A stretch of DNA of 44,321 nucleotides, taken from assembly GCA_010365215.1 (NCBI GenBank), contig JAAFGT010000027.1, positions 1 to 44,321 on the forward strand, written 5' to 3'. Shown in pieces: positions 11,428 through 22,253 of this stretch (positions are counted from its first letter, which is position 1; every line of letters begins with the position of its first letter). Source of the DNA: Acidipila sp. (GTDB taxonomy: Bacteria; Acidobacteriota; Terriglobia; Acidiferrales; UBA7541). The translations under genes and the position numbers were made by a program. The notes beneath the pieces are model-generated. The model saw only the letters and a list, made by a program, of their open reading frames with translations, did not search any database and had not been told where the DNA came from.

Positions 11428-12405
11428 ATGATGAACCCTCCGCGCCTGCAAACGTTCGAAGTCCGCGTTCCCGCCTCCACAGCCAACCTGGGAGCTGGCT
11501 TCGACTGTTTCGGGCTGGCCTTGGAGCTTTTCCTCGCCGTTCGCGCAACGGTATTGCTCGAACCCGGTGCGCGCACACGCGCGCGCAGCCGCACGGAGCC
11601 CGGCGCCTCTCCTTTGCCGCGCGCTGCGGAACAAAATCTGATTTTCCGCGCCATGCTGCACGCCGCCGAAAAAGAAGATCTACCATTGCCGCCATTGCGG
11701 ATTGCCGCTCACAGCGCGATTCCCGTTGCCGGCGGCCTGGGCAGCAGCGCCGCCGCGGTGGTGGCCGGAATTGCTCTGACCTTCGCAATTAATAGACGAG
11801 CGCTCCCGGTAGATGCCGCCTTGCGCTACGCCAAAGAAATGGACGGGCACCCCGACAACGTGGCGGCTGCCTTGCTCGGCGGATTCACGGTAACCTGTGT
11901 CCGTGCGGATGGCAGCGTTGCGGCCGTCCGGAAAAACTGGCCGGCGGAGATTCGCGTAGTTGCGGTCACGCCGAATTTTTATCTGCCGACCGCGAGCGCC
12001 CGTGCCGTTCTTCCCGCGAACGTCCGGCACGTTGACGCGATTTACAACGTGCAGAGATCGGCCCTCTTCCTCGCGGCGCTCGATGAGCGGCGCTATGAGT
12101 TGCTTTGGGATGCCATGCAGGATCGCCTGCACCAATCGCACCGCCAGGAATTAGTCCCCGGCCTTGCCGGGATCCTGCGCATGCCGCGCATTCCTGGCTT
12201 GCTTGGTTTGGCATTGAGCGGCGCAGGGCCCAGCGTTATCGCCTTGGCTACCGGCCATTTCGCCGAAATCGGCAAGGCGATCGCCGGGCAGTTTGAGAGA
12301 CAAAACATCCAGTCGACAATCCGCCACCTCCAGGTTGCCAACGCAGGACAGACCCTTGTTGAACGATCTTCCTTCGGGCCTAAGCGCGGAGCGACGGAAC
12401 AATGA
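11428..12405 (+). CDS. thrB: Homoserine kinase
   Basis: This 325-residue GHMP-family kinase phosphorylates homoserine. The N-terminal strand VPASTANLGAGFDCFG (from about residue 14) and the ATP-binding loop PVAGGLGSSAAAVVAG (about residues 99-114) are diagnostic. The C-terminal motif LALSGAGPSVIAL matches GHMP motif 3. Two tandem ATG codons occur at the start. The last four bases overlap the antiporter start (ATGA), indicating coupled translation. Together with thrC it completes threonine synthesis from homoserine. Confidence 0.92.
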   Translation: MMNPPRLQTFEVRVPASTANLGAGFDCFGLALELFLAVRATVLLEPGARTRARSRTEPGASPLPRAAEQNLIFRAMLHAAEKEDLPLPPLRIAAHSAIPVAGGLGSSAAAVVAGIALTFAINRRALPVDAALRYAKEMDGHPDNVAAALLGGFTVTCVRADGSVAAVRKNWPAEIRVVAVTPNFYLPTASARAVLPANVRHVDAIYNVQRSALFLAALDERRYELLWDAMQDRLHQSHRQELVPGLAGILRMPRIPGLLGLALSGAGPSVIALATGHFAEIGKAIAGQFERQNIQSTIRHLQVANAGQTLVERSSFGPKRGATEQ

Positions 12406-13643
12406 ACTACGTGGTCATATTGATTGTTCAGATCGCCGTCATCCTCATCGCCGCGCGGCTGTTCGGATTTCTGTTCAAGTGGATCTGGCAGCCCCAGGTG
12501 ATTGGTGAGATGGTTGCCGGCATTTTGCTCGGCCCTTCGCTGCTCGGCTGGGCCGCCCCCGGAATTTCCGCTGCGCTGTTTCCGCCCGCCAGCCTCAGCT
12601 ATTTGAATACGCTCAGCCAGATCGGAATTGTGATCTACATTTTCCTGGTGGGTTTGGCGCTCAATCCCAAGGATCTCAAGCGTTTTGGACGCGCCGCGCT
12701 GGTTACCAGCAACGTCAGCATTATTGTGCCTTTCACCCTGGGGGCCATGCTGGCGCTTTATCTCTACCCCAGGCTGTCCAATGACACCGTTTCATTCACC
12801 AGTTTTGCTCTGTTCATGGGTGCGGCGATGAGCATCACCGCATTCCCGGTCTTGGCGCGCATCCTCAAAGATCGCAATATGCTGGACACCAAGCTGGGCA
12901 TGCTGGCCATTGCCTGCGCCGCTGTCGATGACGTCACCGGCTGGTGCATCCTGGCTTATATCGTGGTCATGGTGCGCGCCCAGCCGGGCACGCAGCACCT
13001 GTGGCTGAACCTCGCCGGACTGACGCTTTTCACCCTGCTGATGTTCTATGGAGTAAGGCCGTTGCTCCGGCGGTTCTACGCTGCCTATCGCCAGCGGGGA
13101 TCGCTCAGTGAAAACGCCGTGGCCCTGCTTCTGCTGGTGGTCCTCGCCTCGGCTCTGGCCACCGAACGACTCGGCGTCCACCTTCTATTCGGCGCGTTTT
13201 TGGCCGGTGTGGTGATGCCCAAGGAAGCGGATTTTGTGCGCCACATACTCGACAAATTCGAGTCGTTGACCGTCGTTTTGCTGGTGCCGCTCTTTTTTGC
13301 TTTCACCGGGTTGCGCACCAGCATCGGCATGATCCATGGCGGCCGTATGTGGCTCTATTGCGGCGCCATCATTGTGGTGGCCATCACCGGCAAGCTGGGC
13401 GGCTCTATGCTCGCCGCGCGCGCCAGCGGTGTGTCCTGGAACGAAGCCGCCGGTCTGGGCATTCTGTTGAACACCCGGGGGCTGATGCAGCTGCTTATTC
13501 TCAATATCGGCCTCGATATCGGCGTCATCTCGCCCGCGCTGTTCGCCATGATGGTGCTCATGGCGCTCGTTACCACGTTTATGACCACTCCCATGCTGGA
13601 ATGGATCTGTCCGCAGCATCGCCTGCCCAGAGAAAATGTTTGA
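12402..13643 (+). CDS. CPA2-family cation/proton antiporter (KefB/NapA-like)
   Basis: This 413-residue integral membrane protein has about 12-13 hydrophobic helices across its whole length and no cytosolic TrkA-N domain. Family features include GEMVAGILLGPSLLGW near residues 36-51 and the unwound-helix segment ACAAVDDVTGW near 171-181. It probably exchanges Na+ or K+ for H+. It overlaps thrB by four bases, so it is translated from the threonine operon, although no metabolic link is obvious. Whether it transports only ions or has an amino-acid-related role cannot be told from the sequence. Confidence 0.88.
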   Translation: MNYVVILIVQIAVILIAARLFGFLFKWIWQPQVIGEMVAGILLGPSLLGWAAPGISAALFPPASLSYLNTLSQIGIVIYIFLVGLALNPKDLKRFGRAALVTSNVSIIVPFTLGAMLALYLYPRLSNDTVSFTSFALFMGAAMSITAFPVLARILKDRNMLDTKLGMLAIACAAVDDVTGWCILAYIVVMVRAQPGTQHLWLNLAGLTLFTLLMFYGVRPLLRRFYAAYRQRGSLSENAVALLLLVVLASALATERLGVHLLFGAFLAGVVMPKEADFVRHILDKFESLTVVLLVPLFFAFTGLRTSIGMIHGGRMWLYCGAIIVVAITGKLGGSMLAARASGVSWNEAAGLGILLNTRGLMQLLILNIGLDIGVISPALFAMMVLMALVTTFMTTPMLEWICPQHRLPRENV

Positions 13644-13691: not shown

Positions 13692-13713
13692 GCGCCGGAT
13701 TTTGCGCCGGCGC
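13692..13713. terminator. Hairpin between convergent genes
   Basis: A perfect 7-bp inverted repeat (GCGCCGG and CCGGCGC, 8-base loop) lies between the convergent antiporter and SDR genes. It lacks a long T tract on either strand, so it is a weak candidate for a bidirectional terminator. Confidence 0.35.
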
Positions 13714-13730
13714 TTATACGCGGGCACAGC

Positions 13731-14444
13731 TCAGCGGGGAACGCCGCCCAGATAGATCACCTGCCCGGTGATCGCGTCACTCTGCGGGCGCAGGAAAAAA
13801 TCCACGACATTGGCCACGTCTTCAAATGTGCACAGCCGGCGAATGGTTAGCGATTCCAGCAGCTTGTCGATTTTTTCTTTGGGGATGCCGCGGATCATAT
13901 CTGTGGGCACCGGCGCGGGGCCCACGACGTTGACGGTGATCCCATAATCGATCAGTTCGCGGGAAATCACTTGCGACAGGCTTTCTACGGCGGATTTTGA
14001 CGCAATGTAAACGGCTTCTCCCGCCAGGCGCAGCGGCACCGCCGCGGATCCGAAATTAACGATCCTCCCCACCTTTCTTTTGCGCATCAGCTTGGCGGCT
14101 TCGCGGCTCACCAGCCAGGTGCCCAGAAGATTCGTATCCATCAGCTTCTTGTACGTTTCCACCGGCGTCAATAAAAAATGATTCATCGACGCAGCGCCGG
14201 CGTTATTCAGCAGCACATCCAGCCGGCCGTCTTCCGTGCTGATCCGGCGCATCAGCGCTTTCACCTGGGGTTCGTCGGTCACATCGGTTTCCACATAGGT
14301 GAACCCTTCGGCTTGCCACTCGGCGGGTTTCCGGCTGCATCCCCACACGCGATATCCCTGCCGGAGCAGATGCTCGCTGAGAAAGCGCCCGATGCCGGTG
14401 CGCGCTCCGGTGACCAGCGCGACAGATTTTTCCTGTAAGCTCAT
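13731..14444 (-). CDS. SDR-family NAD(P)-dependent oxidoreductase (FabG-like)
   Basis: This 237-residue classical short-chain dehydrogenase has the cofactor motif TGARTGIG (12-19), the structural NNAG (80-83) and the catalytic Ser133, Tyr146 and Lys150 (YIASK). It most resembles 3-oxoacyl-carrier-protein reductases. It is the last gene of the minus-strand halogenase operon, starting 16 bases after the GNAT gene, which suggests that it reduces a carrier-bound or released keto intermediate. The frame continues 30 codons upstream into the GNAT gene. The ATG at 14444 is preferred because the Rossmann fold begins right after it. Confidence 0.88.
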   Translation of the reverse strand: MSLQEKSVALVTGARTGIGRFLSEHLLRQGYRVWGCSRKPAEWQAEGFTYVETDVTDEPQVKALMRRISTEDGRLDVLLNNAGAASMNHFLLTPVETYKKLMDTNLLGTWLVSREAAKLMRKRKVGRIVNFGSAAVPLRLAGEAVYIASKSAVESLSQVISRELIDYGITVNVVGPAPVPTDMIRGIPKEKIDKLLESLTIRRLCTFEDVANVVDFFLRPQSDAITGQVIYLGGVPR

Positions 14445-14460
14445 GGGGACGGAAATCTCC

Positions 14461-15114
14461 TTACTTGCCTGCTGGTTCTTTGATCCAGTACGTATACAGG
14501 TGCACCGCTGCTCCGGCAAACACCATCTTCTCAAAGGGGCAGCCCATCGCGCTGTAAAAAAGATTCGCCGCCAGATTTGACGGCTGCACCCACAGATGGA
14601 TTCGTTCTAATCCTTTCGCCCGGCAATATTCCACGGCGCTTTCGAACAACCGCACCGCAATTCTTTTTCGCCCGTCCGGCGGAATGTGCTTTTGGTATTC
14701 CGGCATCACCGCCATAGAGAGCGCCTCTCCGCAACCCGCGGAAGATTCTTTGCGGGAATCTTTTGCCCGCCCGCGCATCAGCCGCAGCACGAACATCAGG
14801 TCTTTCAGCATCGCCGGCCGCGCCAGGACGCTCACCGACAGCAGCCACGAAAGATGGATGAAATGACGCCGCAACCCGATCGACATAAAATCGGCCGGGC
14901 GGTCGGTGTAAGAAATAAAGCCCACCACCTGGCCGCCCGCTCGGCACAACGTGCAGCCGATCAACCCATCGGCCACCAGTTGGGGATAATAAAACTCGCG
15001 CAGAAAGCGCGGGCCCATCTTTACGATCGGGCTCTCCGCCAAATACTTGATGTGCAGGTCCGCCACACTCTTAACGTCGGCGGCGTTGCCAGGGTCTAGT
15101 CGTTCAAGGCTCAT
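14461..15114 (-). CDS. GNAT-family N-acyltransferase
   Basis: This 217-residue protein has the GNAT fold: an N-terminal helix pair, the strand GGQVVGFISYTD near residues 60-73 and a C-terminal YCRAKGLERIHLWVQPSNLAANLFYSAMG block that matches the acyl-CoA-binding and C-terminal GNAT motifs. A hydrophobic, Arg-rich central insert (about residues 84-115) is unusual and may contact a membrane or a carrier protein. It sits between the AMP-forming ligase and the SDR gene in one operon. A role in moving an acyl group, possibly from the carrier protein, to an amine is inferred from context. The substrate is unknown. Confidence 0.8.
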   Translation of the reverse strand: MSLERLDPGNAADVKSVADLHIKYLAESPIVKMGPRFLREFYYPQLVADGLIGCTLCRAGGQVVGFISYTDRPADFMSIGLRRHFIHLSWLLSVSVLARPAMLKDLMFVLRLMRGRAKDSRKESSAGCGEALSMAVMPEYQKHIPPDGRKRIAVRLFESAVEYCRAKGLERIHLWVQPSNLAANLFYSAMGCPFEKMVFAGAAVHLYTYWIKEPAGK

Positions 15115-15157
15115 TTGTGTCCGCGATGCTGTGCCGCCGGCTCGGAATTCCTGCCAT

Positions 15158-16501
15158 TCAACGCCGTATCTTTTTGAAGCGGTAATTAACCTGCGACTCC
15201 GTGACCACTTGAACTTTTGCCGGCACCATGAACGGTTGCAGGCGGCCTTTGCAGTGCTGGGCGATGCGTCGCTTCATCTCCGCCGCGGGGATGGGCACGG
15301 CCATCTGCACCGTGGCCACCACGATCTGTCCCATCAGCAGGTGCGCTTCGCCGCGCACCGAAACGTCAATGACCTCGGGCAGCTCCGCAATTACCTTTTC
15401 CACTTCCGCGGGATACACTTTTTGCCCACCCACGTTGATAATCTCCGACTGCCTGCCGAGAATGCGGTAATAGTCTCCTTCCTGAATCACCGCGTCGCCG
15501 GTATCGAACCAGCCTTCCGCGTCGAAGGGGCTGGGCGCGTTCAAATAGCCCAGCATCGAAGAGGTAGCGTGGATGCGCAGGGTGCCGTCCACCACTTTGG
15601 TCTTGTAGTCTTCTCCTCCCACTTTCACGAAAAGTGAGCGGTTCGATTCCGACTTGGACCGCAGGATTCCCAGCTCGGATAATCCATACGTCTGCTGGAA
15701 AGTGGCATTGGGGAACGCTTCATTCGCCAGCGCCAGCGTGCGCTCCGACATCACCTCGGTCCCGTAGGTGATCAACTTGAGCGAGGAGAGATCGTAATTC
15801 TCTCCAGCCCGCGCCAGCAGCAACAAATTTAAAAAAGACGGCGAAGTAGGCAGCAGCTCCACTTTATATTTGGCAATGGCTTCGCACACCCGCGTTACGC
15901 TGCGGTCGCGGGGAACCACGATCGTGCCCAGATTGGCCAGCGTGTAAAACAGCGTGTTAAATCCCCCGATGTGATCGAAGAGAAGAAAATTGATGGTGCG
16001 GAAGCAGTGCCGCGGCTTGCGGAACTTCTCCAGCAGCCGCGGCAGCCCGTGCAGAATCGCTTTGGGTTTTCCCGTCGAGCCTGAGCTGAAGAGCACCAGG
16101 CCGGGAATTTCAGCGTCGCGCACTTGCTGGTAGAGAGGGTGGTTGCGCCGTTCTCCCGCGCGGCGAATCTCCGCGCGGTCCTGCGCATCGATCACGATCA
16201 GATGGTCGATCTCGGCAATCTTAAAAAATTCTGCGTGCTGGTCCCTCGATTCCCTGGAGAGCGGCACCAGAATACATTTTCGCTCGAGCAATGCCAGCAG
16301 GCAGGAAACCGAAGCAGGAGAATAATCGCCAATGACCGCGACTGCGTCACCCGGGCCAATTCCCGCCGCAGTCAGCTCGCCAAGCCATTGCTGGTAGCGA
16401 GCGAAGAGCTGGCCGTAGCTGCAAAGAGTATCGTTCCAGACCAGCGCGGTGCTTTCCGCACCCTCGCGAAACCTTTGCAGTTGCCAGTCGATATGTTCCA
16501 T
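15158..16501 (-). CDS. Class I adenylate-forming ligase (acyl/aryl-AMP ligase)
   Basis: This 447-residue ANL-superfamily enzyme activates a carboxylic acid as an acyl-adenylate and passes it to CoA or a carrier protein. The P-loop SSGSTGKPKA is at residues 139-148, YGLSE is the A5 motif, and GWFDTGDA followed by GRQSEIINVGGQKVYPAEVE gives A7-A8. The C-terminal catalytic lysine is probably K443 in YRFKKIRR. At 447 residues it is shorter than the usual ~500-550, with the loss mainly at the N-terminus. The adjacent stand-alone carrier protein is the obvious acceptor, comparable to CmlK or DltA partnerships. The carboxylate it uses cannot be predicted with confidence. Confidence 0.87.
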   Translation of the reverse strand: MEHIDWQLQRFREGAESTALVWNDTLCSYGQLFARYQQWLGELTAAGIGPGDAVAVIGDYSPASVSCLLALLERKCILVPLSRESRDQHAEFFKIAEIDHLIVIDAQDRAEIRRAGERRNHPLYQQVRDAEIPGLVLFSSGSTGKPKAILHGLPRLLEKFRKPRHCFRTINFLLFDHIGGFNTLFYTLANLGTIVVPRDRSVTRVCEAIAKYKVELLPTSPSFLNLLLLARAGENYDLSSLKLITYGTEVMSERTLALANEAFPNATFQQTYGLSELGILRSKSESNRSLFVKVGGEDYKTKVVDGTLRIHATSSMLGYLNAPSPFDAEGWFDTGDAVIQEGDYYRILGRQSEIINVGGQKVYPAEVEKVIAELPEVIDVSVRGEAHLLMGQIVVATVQMAVPIPAAEMKRRIAQHCKGRLQPFMVPAKVQVVTESQVNYRFKKIRR

Positions 16502-16586
16502 TTTGTTGCGATGTCGGCGTGAGGCGTCTTGCGCCCGCTCTGCTGCCTGATTTTCAGCGTAGAGCGCAGCTTTACGGCGTACGGCT

Positions 16587-16922
16587 CTACGGCTTTACCG
16601 CGCTCAATTTCGATTGCGTCGCCGCTTCACTGGCGGCAGCCAGCTCCAGGATGTAATCGGCCAGCGTCTCGATGGTCCTGAACGGACTATTCTTCCGCGA
16701 CAATGCCTGCTCGCTGACCAGCGACAGCTCCAAACCAAACGACTCAAACAGCGTGGATTCGACGTCGGTGATGAACGACACCAGGGCCATCGATGTGACC
16801 ACCGCTTCGGGACCCACCAGCAACGATCCCGGACCGGCGGTCACGCTGCCGCCTTCACCCTGATCCGCCAGAGCGGTGTTCAGCATCTCCACCATCTTGT
16901 TTACCAGTTCTTCGCGTTGCAT
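16587..16922 (-). CDS. Acyl carrier protein-like protein
   Basis: This 111-residue acidic, helical protein has the size and layout of a stand-alone acyl or peptidyl carrier protein. The probable phosphopantetheine attachment site is S44 in AVVTSMALVSFI, where the usual Asp before the Ser is replaced by Thr. Helix III (TIETLADYILELA) is typical. It carries a short extension at the C-terminus beyond the last helix. It lies between the halogenase and the ligase genes, so it most likely presents the substrate to both. No phosphopantetheinyl transferase is present in this window, so priming would rely on an enzyme encoded elsewhere. Confidence 0.75.
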   Translation of the reverse strand: MQREELVNKMVEMLNTALADQGEGGSVTAGPGSLLVGPEAVVTSMALVSFITDVESTLFESFGLELSLVSEQALSRKNSPFRTIETLADYILELAAASEAATQSKLSAVKP

Positions 16923-16968
16923 CGTTCCACAGCTCCTTGCTGAAATCCCTCAGCCCTTCATCGCCCGG

Positions 16969-18693
16969 TCAGGAAATATCATCCTCGCCGCCCACGCCGC
17001 CGAATCGCGGAGTGGTGTGCAGCTTCACCGGCTTTCCATCCTTATCATAGCCCTGCAGAAATCCTTGCTCCACCAGCCGCGCCACCACCTGCAGCGGCGT
17101 GCCCTGCACACCCAGAGTCTTCAATTGGGCGGCCAGTTCTTTGTAGCTTAACGGATGCTCCAGCAGGCTGCTGAAAAGTTTCTGGTGTTCCGAAGTCATT
17201 ACGTAGGCGGTCATGGTTCTGCCGGTTTCGTTGCCGATAAAATACTGGCGCTCCAGGCGGAAGGTGGTGGGGTGCACGCGGAAAGAAGGCACCAGCCGCA
17301 CCTCGCTCCCGGTCCACCGCATCGTGGTCATGCTTTGCAGTTCCTTCTGCAGCCGGCTGGCGCCCAGCACGCGGCGCATGGAGAGTTCCGTTTCATCGTA
17401 CGCGTCGGAGAGATCGCTGCTGCCGTGCTGCCACAATTCCGCCAGCGCGGCCGCGCCCGATTCCAATTCCTCCGCGCCCTCGGCGCCCGCATCCATGTGC
17501 TGCCCGGTAAGCGCGGTAAACCACTGCTTGCCTTCGAAGCGCGAATCTTTGGCTCCGGCAACTTTGCGGCTGGACCAGAATTTTGATTCCGGCTCTTCAT
17601 TGCTGGCGTAAAAACTGGCCACAAATTTATGGTACCGGGAATAGGCCTCGCGATACGAGCGCTCATACCAATCGTGCACTTCCGCGGCGTCCGCGGGATG
17701 GTCCAGCAGGTGGGCGATTCCCGAAGCCGCGAGCATGCCCGAGTAGGTGGCCAGGTGCACACCTTGGGAGAACAGCGGATCGATAAAGCACCCGGCGTCT
17801 CCGCAAAGAAACGCGTGGCCCATGGAGAGCGTCTTGGCTTCGTAGCTCCACTCCCGCAGCACGCGCACTTCTTCCGACTGCTTGGCCGTGGCCAGCAGCT
17901 CCATCGCCAGCGGGCACATGTGCAGACATTCCTGATAAAAAGCCTCGGCGCCGATGTCGCGGATGCGCGCGTTAGCGCTGATGTCGGTGACCACTCCCAC
18001 GCTGTAGGTATCGTCTTTCAGCGGAATAATCCAGATCCAGCCTTCCTTGAAAGTCACAGAAAAAATATTTCCTTCCAGGTCGCCTTTGAATCGTTTACCG
18101 CCCTTGAAGTACGCCCACACCGCCATGTTGCGGTAGTACGGGTCCCACTGCCGCAAATTCATTTTTTGCGCCAGCACTCCGCGCGCGCCGGAAGCATCCA
18201 CCACGTAAGCCGCCTCGCAAACGCCCTTGTGCTCCTCGCTCTTCCAATGCACGCGCGTGGGAGTTCCGTTCTCACCCAACTCCACGTCGGTAACTTCGTG
18301 CAGCTCGTTCACCTGGGTTCCGCGCTCGCGGACTGTATCCAGAAGAATTTTGTCAAACTCCGCGCGCGTCACCTGGTAGGAATGATCGAAAACCCACGGC
18401 GCGGTCTTCGGCGTGGCAAACGTAAACGACCACGGCGGCACACCGCCGCCCCAGATAAACGTCGCCGCGCGCTTCTTTGGAAAATTGGCGGCCTTAATTT
18501 TGTCTCCGAGTCCCAACCGGCTGAGAATCGAGATGGTGCCGGGCAGCAGCGATTCGCCAAGACGGTAACGCGGAAACTTCATCTTTTCGAAAACAATCGT
18601 TTCGATGCCAAGTTTATTGAGGATCAGCGCGGCAACGCTTCCGGCGGGTCCTCCGCCGATCACCGCCACCGGTTTTCTGTCATTCGAGTTCAT
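16969..18693 (-). CDS. Flavin-dependent halogenase (CmlS/PltA-like)
   Basis: This 574-residue FAD enzyme carries the halogenase signature WxWxIP as WIWIIP at residues 219-224 and a candidate catalytic lysine at K73/K74 (FPKKRAATF), the position expected for the hypohalous-acid lysine. FAD motifs are GGGPAG (13-18) and GDAGCFIDPLFSQGVHLA (298-315). A C-terminal extension of about 190 residues beyond the FAD fold gives a length close to CmlS (about 570), which belongs to the group acting on acyl or carrier-bound substrates. Such enzymes need FADH2 from a separate reductase, which is not in this window. AAGGTG lies eight bases before the start. As first gene of the operon it probably sets the product class. 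A non-halogenating hydroxylase relative is the main alternative. Confidence 0.82.
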   Translation of the reverse strand: MNSNDRKPVAVIGGGPAGSVAALILNKLGIETIVFEKMKFPRYRLGESLLPGTISILSRLGLGDKIKAANFPKKRAATFIWGGGVPPWSFTFATPKTAPWVFDHSYQVTRAEFDKILLDTVRERGTQVNELHEVTDVELGENGTPTRVHWKSEEHKGVCEAAYVVDASGARGVLAQKMNLRQWDPYYRNMAVWAYFKGGKRFKGDLEGNIFSVTFKEGWIWIIPLKDDTYSVGVVTDISANARIRDIGAEAFYQECLHMCPLAMELLATAKQSEEVRVLREWSYEAKTLSMGHAFLCGDAGCFIDPLFSQGVHLATYSGMLAASGIAHLLDHPADAAEVHDWYERSYREAYSRYHKFVASFYASNEEPESKFWSSRKVAGAKDSRFEGKQWFTALTGQHMDAGAEGAEELESGAAALAELWQHGSSDLSDAYDETELSMRRVLGASRLQKELQSMTTMRWTGSEVRLVPSFRVHPTTFRLERQYFIGNETGRTMTAYVMTSEHQKLFSSLLEHPLSYKELAAQLKTLGVQGTPLQVVARLVEQGFLQGYDKDGKPVKLHTTPRFGGVGGEDDIS

Positions 18694-18944: not shown

Positions 18945-19883
18945 CTAGGCTTTTGTGGCCGGATGGCGGTTCCCGGGAGCCGGGAGCGCCCTGCCGCTGT
19001 TCAATTCTTCCAGCAGTTGGTCGGTCGAGATAATCCGAAAATGCTTGCGCACCAGATCCAGCATTATCTGGCAACGTCTTAGTTTACTCTCTTTGCCGAG
19101 GTGGGACAGGGTAAAAATTCTCTGTTTCCAACCGCGCAGCTCGCTCGCCGGCAACGGGTCCGCCAAATCCGTGAAATGAAAAAGCAGCACCAGCGGCGCT
19201 CCGCTGCGGCTGAATCGCTCCAGCCCCCAGCGGAATAAAGGAAGCCCCAGCAACAGCGCGTAGGAGGGGCTGAAAGGCACAGGCGATGGCCGGTAATCCG
19301 GCAGCGGCAGTTCCCAGAACTTGCTGCCCGCCAGCGGTTGTGCGGGCCAAAGAAAGTCCTCTAAAGGCCGGTTGAGCCGCCCGGCGATGATTTTGTTCGG
19401 TACCGCCGACGAATCATAGGTGTAACCGCATTGCGCCAGCAGCTCGACGGATTCCTGGTCGATGCTATAACCCGGCGCGCGAAAACCGCGCACGGAAATT
19501 CCCAGCGCCGCCTCCATCTTTTCGCGGCTGTCCGCGAGTTGATGGCGCTTTTCCTCGCGCGTCAGCCGGTAAAGCAAGGGATGGCTGAAGGAATGCGAGG
19601 CCAGCTCGTGGCCGCGAAGGTGCGCGTCCTGCAGCAGCGCGCGCTTGCGCGGATCGTCCAGGCTGCTGGCAATGACGAACAGCGTGGCGCGAACCGTGTT
19701 CCTCTGGAAAAACTCCAGCGCGTTCCGCATGCCGCTGGCAAATAGGTGATCCTCCGGTTGGGAGTACCGCCATCCGTGCATGCGATAAATATCTGTAGCG
19801 CCATCGCAATCTACGTGAATCACAGCCGGCGGAAGGTTCGGCAAGCTCTCCGCTTCGGGCGCCGCCCGCTGCCGGTCACTCAC
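18945..19883 (-). CDS. NodB-type polysaccharide/amide deacetylase
   Basis: This 312-residue protein belongs to the polysaccharide deacetylase family. The metal and catalytic residues are visible: D25/D27 in HVDCDGATD, the HxxxH pair H97/H101 in SHSFSHP and the downstream RAPGYS motif. No signal peptide is present, so it probably acts in the cytoplasm on a small or lipid-linked N-acetyl substrate rather than on wall polymer. The GTG at 19883 is chosen because it overlaps the VOC gene by only 8 bases. An ATG at 19955 would overlap it by 80. It lies 251 bases upstream of the halogenase operon on the same strand and may supply a free amine to that pathway, which is inference. Confidence 0.8.
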   Translation of the reverse strand: MSDRQRAAPEAESLPNLPPAVIHVDCDGATDIYRMHGWRYSQPEDHLFASGMRNALEFFQRNTVRATLFVIASSLDDPRKRALLQDAHLRGHELASHSFSHPLLYRLTREEKRHQLADSREKMEAALGISVRGFRAPGYSIDQESVELLAQCGYTYDSSAVPNKIIAGRLNRPLEDFLWPAQPLAGSKFWELPLPDYRPSPVPFSPSYALLLGLPLFRWGLERFSRSGAPLVLLFHFTDLADPLPASELRGWKQRIFTLSHLGKESKLRRCQIMLDLVRKHFRIISTDQLLEELNSGRALPAPGNRHPATKA

Positions 19884-20307
19884 CGGAGATCCGCAGGTCT
19901 TTCCCGCTTCTTTCCTTCTCCCAGCGCTGCTGCTCCGGCGCTCCCCAATGAGCAATCAACAAAACGTAACCGTCCGGGTCGTCTATCCTGATTTCACCGC
20001 TGGGCATGTACGGGGGATAATTGAGTGCCGGCGCCGCAAGCCCGTGCGCCAATAGATGCTCGCGCAGACCGGCCAAGTCGGGCGAATACATGTACAACAT
20101 CACCGCCTGTGCGGAAGCCTCCACACTCTCTTCCGCTTTCAGAAACATCACCGCGCCACCCTCGCAGTGCATTCGCGCCCACCCCAGCGGCTGCGCGCCG
20201 TCCGTGTCCACCGTCGTGAATCCCAATACCTGGTAAAAGCGAATCGATCGCTCGATGTCCGCCACATGCATCAGGGGCGTTGCATAACCGACTTTCATAA
20301 CCAACAA
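19876..20307 (-). CDS. VOC (glyoxalase/bleomycin-resistance) superfamily protein
   Basis: This 143-residue protein shows the paired beta-alpha-beta-beta-beta modules of the VOC fold. The N-terminal half begins VGYATPLMHVADIERSIRFYQVLGF, and the second half ends with RIDDPDGYVLLIAHWG. Candidate metal ligands (H14, E48 region and the DPDGY strand) are present, but the assignment is approximate. A second ATG at 20298 is possible as the start. Its last bases overlap the deacetylase start, so the two are probably translated together. The function could be resistance, isomerase or dioxygenase chemistry; nothing decides it. Confidence 0.8.
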   Translation of the reverse strand: MLVMKVGYATPLMHVADIERSIRFYQVLGFTTVDTDGAQPLGWARMHCEGGAVMFLKAEESVEASAQAVMLYMYSPDLAGLREHLLAHGLAAPALNYPPYMPSGEIRIDDPDGYVLLIAHWGAPEQQRWEKERSGKDLRISGE

Positions 20308-21395: not shown

Positions 21396-22253
21396 CTAAA
21401 AATCTAGCGCGCCCAGGGGAACGTCCGTGGGTATCTCTTCACCCCTTGTCGTCGCCTTCACCAGGCCAAACTTTTTCATAAGTTTGACGGTTATAAATCC
21501 AAAGTCGTACTCCGATTCATCGTGGCTCAGCCGCAAAAGACCCGGATAGTGGTGATGATTATTTTGCAAGCAAGCGCTAAAGGTTGCCGTTACCGGTAGC
21601 CACTCGCCAATATTCATGGCGTTGTCTTCTTCATCGTTATACCGCCGGTATCCGAAGTCTCGCGTGTGGGTCCAATAGTTTTGAATCATATTCACCCACA
21701 GTGCAAAAATCCGCATTCCAAACCACATCACCAGCGTAAACTTCAGATCTCCAACTAACTTCCATAGGAGATAAAAACTAAGAGCTTGTGAAACGATTGC
21801 AAATAGCGGGTTCGCAACGAGCCGAAACGTCCGAGACTTCAAAATCGTGTCGCCGGCCAAATTCTCATTGCATTTATACGGCATTAAACAGCGATACATA
21901 GTTCGCCAAAAACCATCGCCTGCAAGTTTATTGGGATCTCCATCATGGTCAGAATTTTTATGATGCAATCGGTGGCGATTCACCCAGGCGATCGGATCCA
22001 CATAGATCCCGAAGAAGTTATTTGCGACAGTGACGACTTTTATGAACCATTCTTTATAGTCGAGTGCCCGATGAGCGATTCCCATATGAAGAACATCAGC
22101 CAAATACAACCCGGCAAGAAACCAACAAAAGATAAAATAGAGTCCGCCGATTAACATTCCCTCCCAAGGTCCGAACTGAGCTGGAGCGGAATAGACACAA
22201 ACCAGCACGTAGAACAAAATGATCAAATAACCTGTGACATTGTATATTTTCAC
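21396..22253 (-). CDS. Membrane acyl-CoA/acyl-lipid desaturase
   Basis: This 285-residue membrane protein has two to four long hydrophobic segments and the three histidine boxes of the delta-9 type fatty-acid desaturase family: HMGIAHR, NRHRLHH and QNNHHHYPG. These ligate a di-iron centre that inserts a double bond into an acyl chain. The C-terminal tail (EYDFGFITVKLMKKFGLV) also matches the family. Base composition is clearly richer in A+T than neighbouring genes, which suggests horizontal acquisition. The redox partner is not in the window. Adjustment of membrane fluidity is the usual role. Confidence 0.88.
   Translation of the reverse strand: MKIYNVTGYLIILFYVLVCVYSAPAQFGPWEGMLIGGLYFIFCWFLAGLYLADVLHMGIAHRALDYKEWFIKVVTVANNFFGIYVDPIAWVNRHRLHHKNSDHDGDPNKLAGDGFWRTMYRCLMPYKCNENLAGDTILKSRTFRLVANPLFAIVSQALSFYLLWKLVGDLKFTLVMWFGMRIFALWVNMIQNYWTHTRDFGYRRYNDEEDNAMNIGEWLPVTATFSACLQNNHHHYPGLLRLSHDESEYDFGFITVKLMKKFGLVKATTRGEEIPTDVPLGALDF

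Follow-up and report, generated by a model that had tools for sequence, protein, structure and literature searches.

In chloramphenicol biosynthetic clusters the genes cmlM, cmlJ, cmlK and cmlS lie side by side. A 2014 study called the roles of the dichloroacetylation genes obscure and named these four, along with cmlT, as the likely candidates; cmlJ is essential (PMC4249514). The flavin halogenase CmlS carries covalent flavin adenine dinucleotide (FAD) and has been implicated in vivo in formation of the dichloroacetyl group, for which an enolate-type malonyl substrate was proposed (PMC8407142). CmlH is predicted to transfer the dichloroacetyl group (PMC7357120), and in a different context MupQ, MupS and MacpD make a 3-hydroxypropionyl-carrier from malonyl-coenzyme A (malonyl-CoA) (PMC10098928). 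Here we describe a related five-gene operon in Acidipila sp., on contig JAAFGT010000027.1, of which a stretch of 44 kb was analysed (the window). With a probability of roughly two in three we read it as a self-contained module for haloacyl transfer, of the chloramphenicol type, with a GNAT acyltransferase as its transferase; loading, step order and cleavage in the mechanism set out below are inferred. The four-gene haloacyl module as such is known; here it stands free of the chloramphenicol core and has a putative transferase of its own, the GNAT.

All five genes are on the minus strand and form a compact operon with intergenic distances of 16 to 85 bases, as an earlier note on this DNA had proposed. 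They encode a CmlS-like flavin halogenase of 574 amino acids with a CmlS_C C-terminal domain (18693-16969), a CmlM-like acyl carrier protein of 111 amino acids with its phosphopantetheine site at Ser44 (16922-16587), an adenosine monophosphate (AMP)-forming ligase of the CmlK and thiomarinol-ligase type (447 amino acids, 16501-15158), a GNAT acyltransferase of 217 amino acids that is the proposed haloacyl transferase (15114-14461), and a CmlJ-like short-chain dehydrogenase/reductase (SDR) of 237 amino acids (13731-14444). For the SDR we corrected the start to 14444 (MSLQEK), which has AAGGAG upstream and lies 16 bases after the GNAT stop; a start at TTG 14534 was dropped in its favour. Pfam and NCBIfam models support the assignments of halogenase, ligase, GNAT and SDR, and the carrier matches no family model of either collection. 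The base composition of the cassette equals that of its surroundings and so gives no sign of recent transfer.

Halogenase, carrier, ligase and SDR are homologues of cmlS, cmlM, cmlK and cmlJ, and the same four genes are clustered in all 13 named CmlS loci that we examined: seven chloramphenicol clusters (L023-L029), four other actinobacterial loci (L019 and L020 from Microbispora and Rhizohabitans, L021 and L022 being Streptomyces clusters with an ATP-grasp enzyme) and the two Rhizobium plasmids pT136b and T1470 unnamed6 (L032 and L033). Identities of the window proteins to these loci are 44-47% for the halogenase, 35-40% for the ligase and 42-47% for the SDR, which carries the motifs TGARTGIG, NNAG and YIASK and is at most 34% identical to the other SDRs tested. 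The carrier could be aligned (tblastn and alignment) with 13 CmlM-type carriers of related loci, to which it is about 40-50% identical over the core and with which it shares an invariant Ser44-Met45. In its structure model (predicted local distance difference test score, pLDDT, of 67) Ser44 sits at a helix start, and a Foldseek comparison with the PDB returned nearly all acyl carrier proteins, though weakly (E-values above 0.2). A carrier-like match in Tistrella was set aside, as neither ligase nor halogenase stands alongside it. In Streptomyces venezuelae the four enzymes (35-47% identity) are likewise encoded adjacently on one strand.

These comparisons modify the earlier view. The note had regarded both the carrier and the GNAT as additions to a CmlS/CmlK pair; this holds for the GNAT, but the chloramphenicol cluster has its own carrier in cmlM (PMC4249514). 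It had also listed the SDR and left its role unexplained; the counterpart is cmlJ (PMC4249514), so that, of the five genes, four have counterparts in that cluster. Taken together, cmlS, cmlM, cmlK and cmlJ look like a portable haloacyl-carrier module. The gene order in the window is S-M-K-GNAT-J as against M-J-K-S in the other loci, which marks the window cassette as an old or reassembled version. On the Rhizobium side, the cassettes reside on conjugative plasmids of root-nodule rhizobia and are surrounded by transposases.

The halogenase aligns over its full length with CmlS (3i3l) at 47% identity, and its CmlS_C domain (PF22045) scores 110 bits. Against the CmlS equivalog NF033113 it scores 681.7 bits and does not reach the curated cut-off of 900; the protein is CmlS-like and by score falls outside that equivalog. 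The WIWIIP motif given in the earlier note lies at residues 219-224, and the candidate catalytic lysine is K74, which aligns with CmlS K71; E47 is kept at the position of CmlS E44. Both CmlS residues are catalytic. One site differs: Glu281 of the window protein stands at CmlS position 277, where CmlS and 13 others have an Asp that is presumably the site of covalent FAD attachment. The same Glu occurs in G294, a relative of the same phylum with 64% identity to the window halogenase; in the tree the two together are sister to a group of 14 CmlS-type proteins. Patterns built from single proteins retrieved no relatives in genome contigs, but a two-row alignment with CmlS did, and a CmlS-like halogenase gene was found in 2 of 396 genomes of the phylum and 1 of 399 of the class, a sporadic distribution. 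It could be argued that the flavoprotein is a hydroxylase or another monooxygenase with a non-halogenated product, as the family includes FAD monooxygenases and the presumed FAD-linking Asp is replaced. Given the full-length CmlS architecture, the kept Lys and Glu positions, the W.W.IP motif and the fact that, of its best relatives with solved structures, almost all are halogenases, we consider this improbable; homology places the protein among halogenases and not hydroxylases.

Because four genes recall the chloramphenicol cluster so closely, the question arises whether chloramphenicol, or a corynecin-like amide of p-aminophenylalanine, is produced here by means of core genes located in another part of the genome. 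CmlS, CmlM, CmlK and CmlJ homologues are what such a pathway would contain. Within the 44-kb window, however, no match was found to CmlA, CmlP, CmlI or CmlH, and AurF (the family of CmlI) has no match in the whole genome, which is 97.8% complete (cmlA, cmlP and cmlH were searched in the window only). The gene order differs as well, and both halogenase and ligase fall beside those of the chloramphenicol clusters, as their sister lineage, and not inside them. Chloramphenicol itself is therefore a very unlikely product, and the broader version of this explanation is hardly credible. Compared with the chloramphenicol cluster, the window lacks the p-aminophenylalanine core and CmlH and has the GNAT inside the operon.

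The transferase is the part in which the loci differ. CmlH is present in nine loci (L021-L029). In L019, L020, L032 and L033 a hexapeptide acyltransferase of NeuD/PglD type, from the NeuD/PglB/VioB family of sugar N-acyltransferases, lies between ligase and halogenase, accompanied by a serine hydrolase, and CmlH was not found in the examined stretches. The window has neither CmlH nor a hexapeptide acyltransferase but a GNAT instead (Pfam Acetyltransf_1, 39 bits), and across 14 loci the three transferase types never overlap. It is mainly because of this swapping pattern that the GNAT is proposed as haloacyl transferase; the GNAT is the best candidate for moving the haloacyl group to an amine, with the transferase as the exchangeable part of the module. 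The final transfer step assigned to the GNAT in the earlier note thus gains support, while its expectation of a conserved five-gene neighbourhood is borne out for the four genes that travel together and fails for the fifth, which is swapped. The cassettes of Microbispora oryzae, Rhizohabitans arisaemae and the Rhizobium plasmids resemble the window in that they combine the four genes with a dedicated acyltransferase and lack the chloramphenicol core; they differ in the fold family of the transferase and in the serine hydrolase, and the actinobacterial pair has an additional ATP-grasp ligase.

Alternatively, the GNAT may be an unrelated acetyl-CoA enzyme that merely sits in the operon, and the halogenated carrier-bound acyl unit made by the other four proteins may be set free or consumed by an enzyme encoded elsewhere. 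Ligases of this family are also employed in starter loading for polyketide synthases (PKS), and relatives of the GNAT turned up neither in the other cassettes nor on plasmids. On the other hand, each of the other cassettes comes with an acyl transferase, dedicated or predicted; in this operon nothing but the GNAT could fill that role, and it sits between ligase and SDR with gaps of 43 and 16 bases. We regard this alternative as unlikely. A scan that covered part of the open reading frames of the window revealed neither a PKS nor a nonribosomal peptide synthetase, in agreement with what had been noted before.

Some additional observations concern these cassettes. An extra open reading frame of the Rhizobium and Microbispora cassettes was considered as the same GNAT and rejected, as it is the hexapeptide acyltransferase. 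Further GNAT-type genes do occur on the Rhizobium plasmids but are unrelated, and one of the plasmids has a hydrolase-GNAT fusion annotated as two genes. The non-chloramphenicol clusters L019 (2586-7288), L020, L021 and L022 combine the haloacyl cassette with an ATP-grasp enzyme of the L-amino acid ligase type and transporters, and one of them also has an aminotransferase.

As to the acceptor, the three nearest relatives of the GNAT (28-32% identity; all those found in the phylum) lie between a glycosyltransferase and a DegT-type aminotransferase, which is of the UDP-4-amino-sugar kind where scored. This weakly suggests an amino sugar as a plausible acceptor. The structure prediction for the GNAT has a pLDDT of 40, and no fold search was based on it.

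The nature of the loaded acid is suggested by the ligase, which has the Pfam domains AMP-binding and AMP-binding_C. It is 35-40% identical to CmlK-type ligases, 46% to the ligases of the Burkholderia and Bradyrhizobium triads found in a plasmid search, and 36% over 449 residues to a ligase of the thiomarinol plasmid pTML1, which from its gene order we take to be TmlQ, the MupQ equivalent. Each of these plasmid relatives stands within a row of ligase, SDR, carrier and PKS. The window ligase, CmlK and the plasmid ligases form one clade against the outgroups; in all of them the DHIGG region is shortened in the same way and the C-terminal part contains an FKK/LKK motif. The grouping with the thiomarinol-plasmid ligase suggests malonyl-CoA as the ligase substrate, an idea that is new here. 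The mupirocin/thiomarinol starter cassette (MupQ, MupS, MacpD) resembles the window operon in its ligase family and its composition of ligase, SDR and carrier, but it feeds a polyketide synthase, has neither halogenase nor GNAT, and its SDR and carrier are not specifically related to those of the window. The plasmid rows of Burkholderia stagnalis and Bradyrhizobium (L086 11983-20763 and L087 11953-20592) likewise resemble the mupirocin starter cassette and include a large PKS.

In the mechanism that we propose the ligase would adenylate a small acid, most likely the free carboxylate of malonyl-CoA, and load it onto Ser44 of the carrier. The halogenase would then chlorinate the activated alpha-carbon, probably twice, and the SDR would reduce the far thioester or keto end. 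Loss of this far end by deformylation or retro-aldol cleavage would leave a dichloroacetyl (or chloroacetyl) carrier, and the GNAT would pass its haloacyl group on to a primary amine, perhaps that of an amino sugar. The carrier-bound haloacyl chemistry of the CmlS/CmlK type anticipated in the earlier note is supported. Of its two options for the bound group, acyl stands; aryl is unlikely, since the halogenase falls with CmlS, and the ligase with both CmlK and the thiomarinol-plasmid ligase. In vitro work on MupQ-type enzymes reportedly describes a bis-thioester between CoA and carrier. The most specific version of our scheme, in which malonyl-CoA enters through such a bis-thioester by way of the MupQ-type ligase and the GNAT dichloroacetylates an amino sugar, so that haloacylated sugars would appear on the cell surface or be secreted, is rather doubtful as a whole.

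Loading of an acetoacetyl or 3-hydroxybutyryl group is a possible, if tentative, variant, kept because neither the SDR nor the carrier falls with its counterpart from the mupirocin-type cassettes. Here the SDR would set the oxidation state of the beta-carbon, and retro-Claisen cleavage after dichlorination would give the dichloroacetyl-carrier. In general chemistry beta-keto thioesters serve well as enolate donors, the SDR is FabG-like, and the serine hydrolase present in four cassettes could perform the cleavage. The grouping of the ligase with the thiomarinol-type ligase argues in the other direction.

Several points weigh against the haloacyl-transfer module as we propose it. At the presumed FAD-linking position a Glu replaces the Asp of CmlS, and the relative that shares it lies on a 3.5-kb contig, too short to reveal any GNAT. 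Only the ligase would point to malonyl-CoA, since SDR and carrier are not specifically related to the thiomarinol ones: the SDR is 25-30% identical to the thiomarinol SDR, no nearer than to generic FabG, and the carrier has no BLAST match to the thiomarinol carrier. A GNAT of the window type occurs in no other cassette, so that its link to the module consists of operon position and the swapping pattern, and no amino-sugar aminotransferase could be located beside the operon.

If the module works as proposed, a five-gene operon free of the remaining pathway would come close to a minimal system for reconstituting dichloroacetyl formation, the process described as obscure in PMC4249514. The comparison places cmlJ with the haloacyl module rather than the aromatic core, and it links CmlK to ligases whose reaction has been measured, making the starting acid directly testable. 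Should the first steps indeed run through a malonyl-CoA bis-thioester, they would also explain the long-unsolved dichloroacetyl group of chloramphenicol. The comparison also traces the haloacyl module, combined with different transferases, to at least three lineages, and it points to haloacyl amides that have escaped notice in bacteria not associated with such compounds.

Directly after the SDR a terminator-like hairpin was scanned at 13692-13713 (minus strand; seven G-C pairs and then a T-rich tail, by consensus only). Facing the operon is a CPA2-type Na+/H+ antiporter (12402-13643, plus strand). Its homologues (L055 8715-10019, L054 6422-7750, L021 1321-2664) adjoin halogenase-like genes in the relatives G059 and G087 and lie near the cassette in Streptomyces LS1784; for comparison, chloramphenicol clusters have cmlN. 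Relatives of the window keep lysC-thrC-thrB with neither antiporter nor cassette beside it, and a comparison of empty sites by way of this operon gave no clean boundary.

Upstream of the halogenase, on the same strand, lies a polysaccharide deacetylase gene (18945-19955; Pfam Polysacc_deac_1, 70 bits), separated by 251 bases; it is at most a putative member of the operon. It overlaps a glyoxalase-family gene, the pair covering 18945-20307 on the minus strand. That the deacetylase might provide the GNAT with a free amine, in the manner of NodB and NodA, is purely speculative. Further along, a fatty-acid desaturase gene (21396-22253, minus strand) near a tRNA-Pro and a tyrosine-recombinase-like gene has a GC content of 0.46 (0.51 at third codon positions), far below its neighbours, and is possibly a recent arrival.

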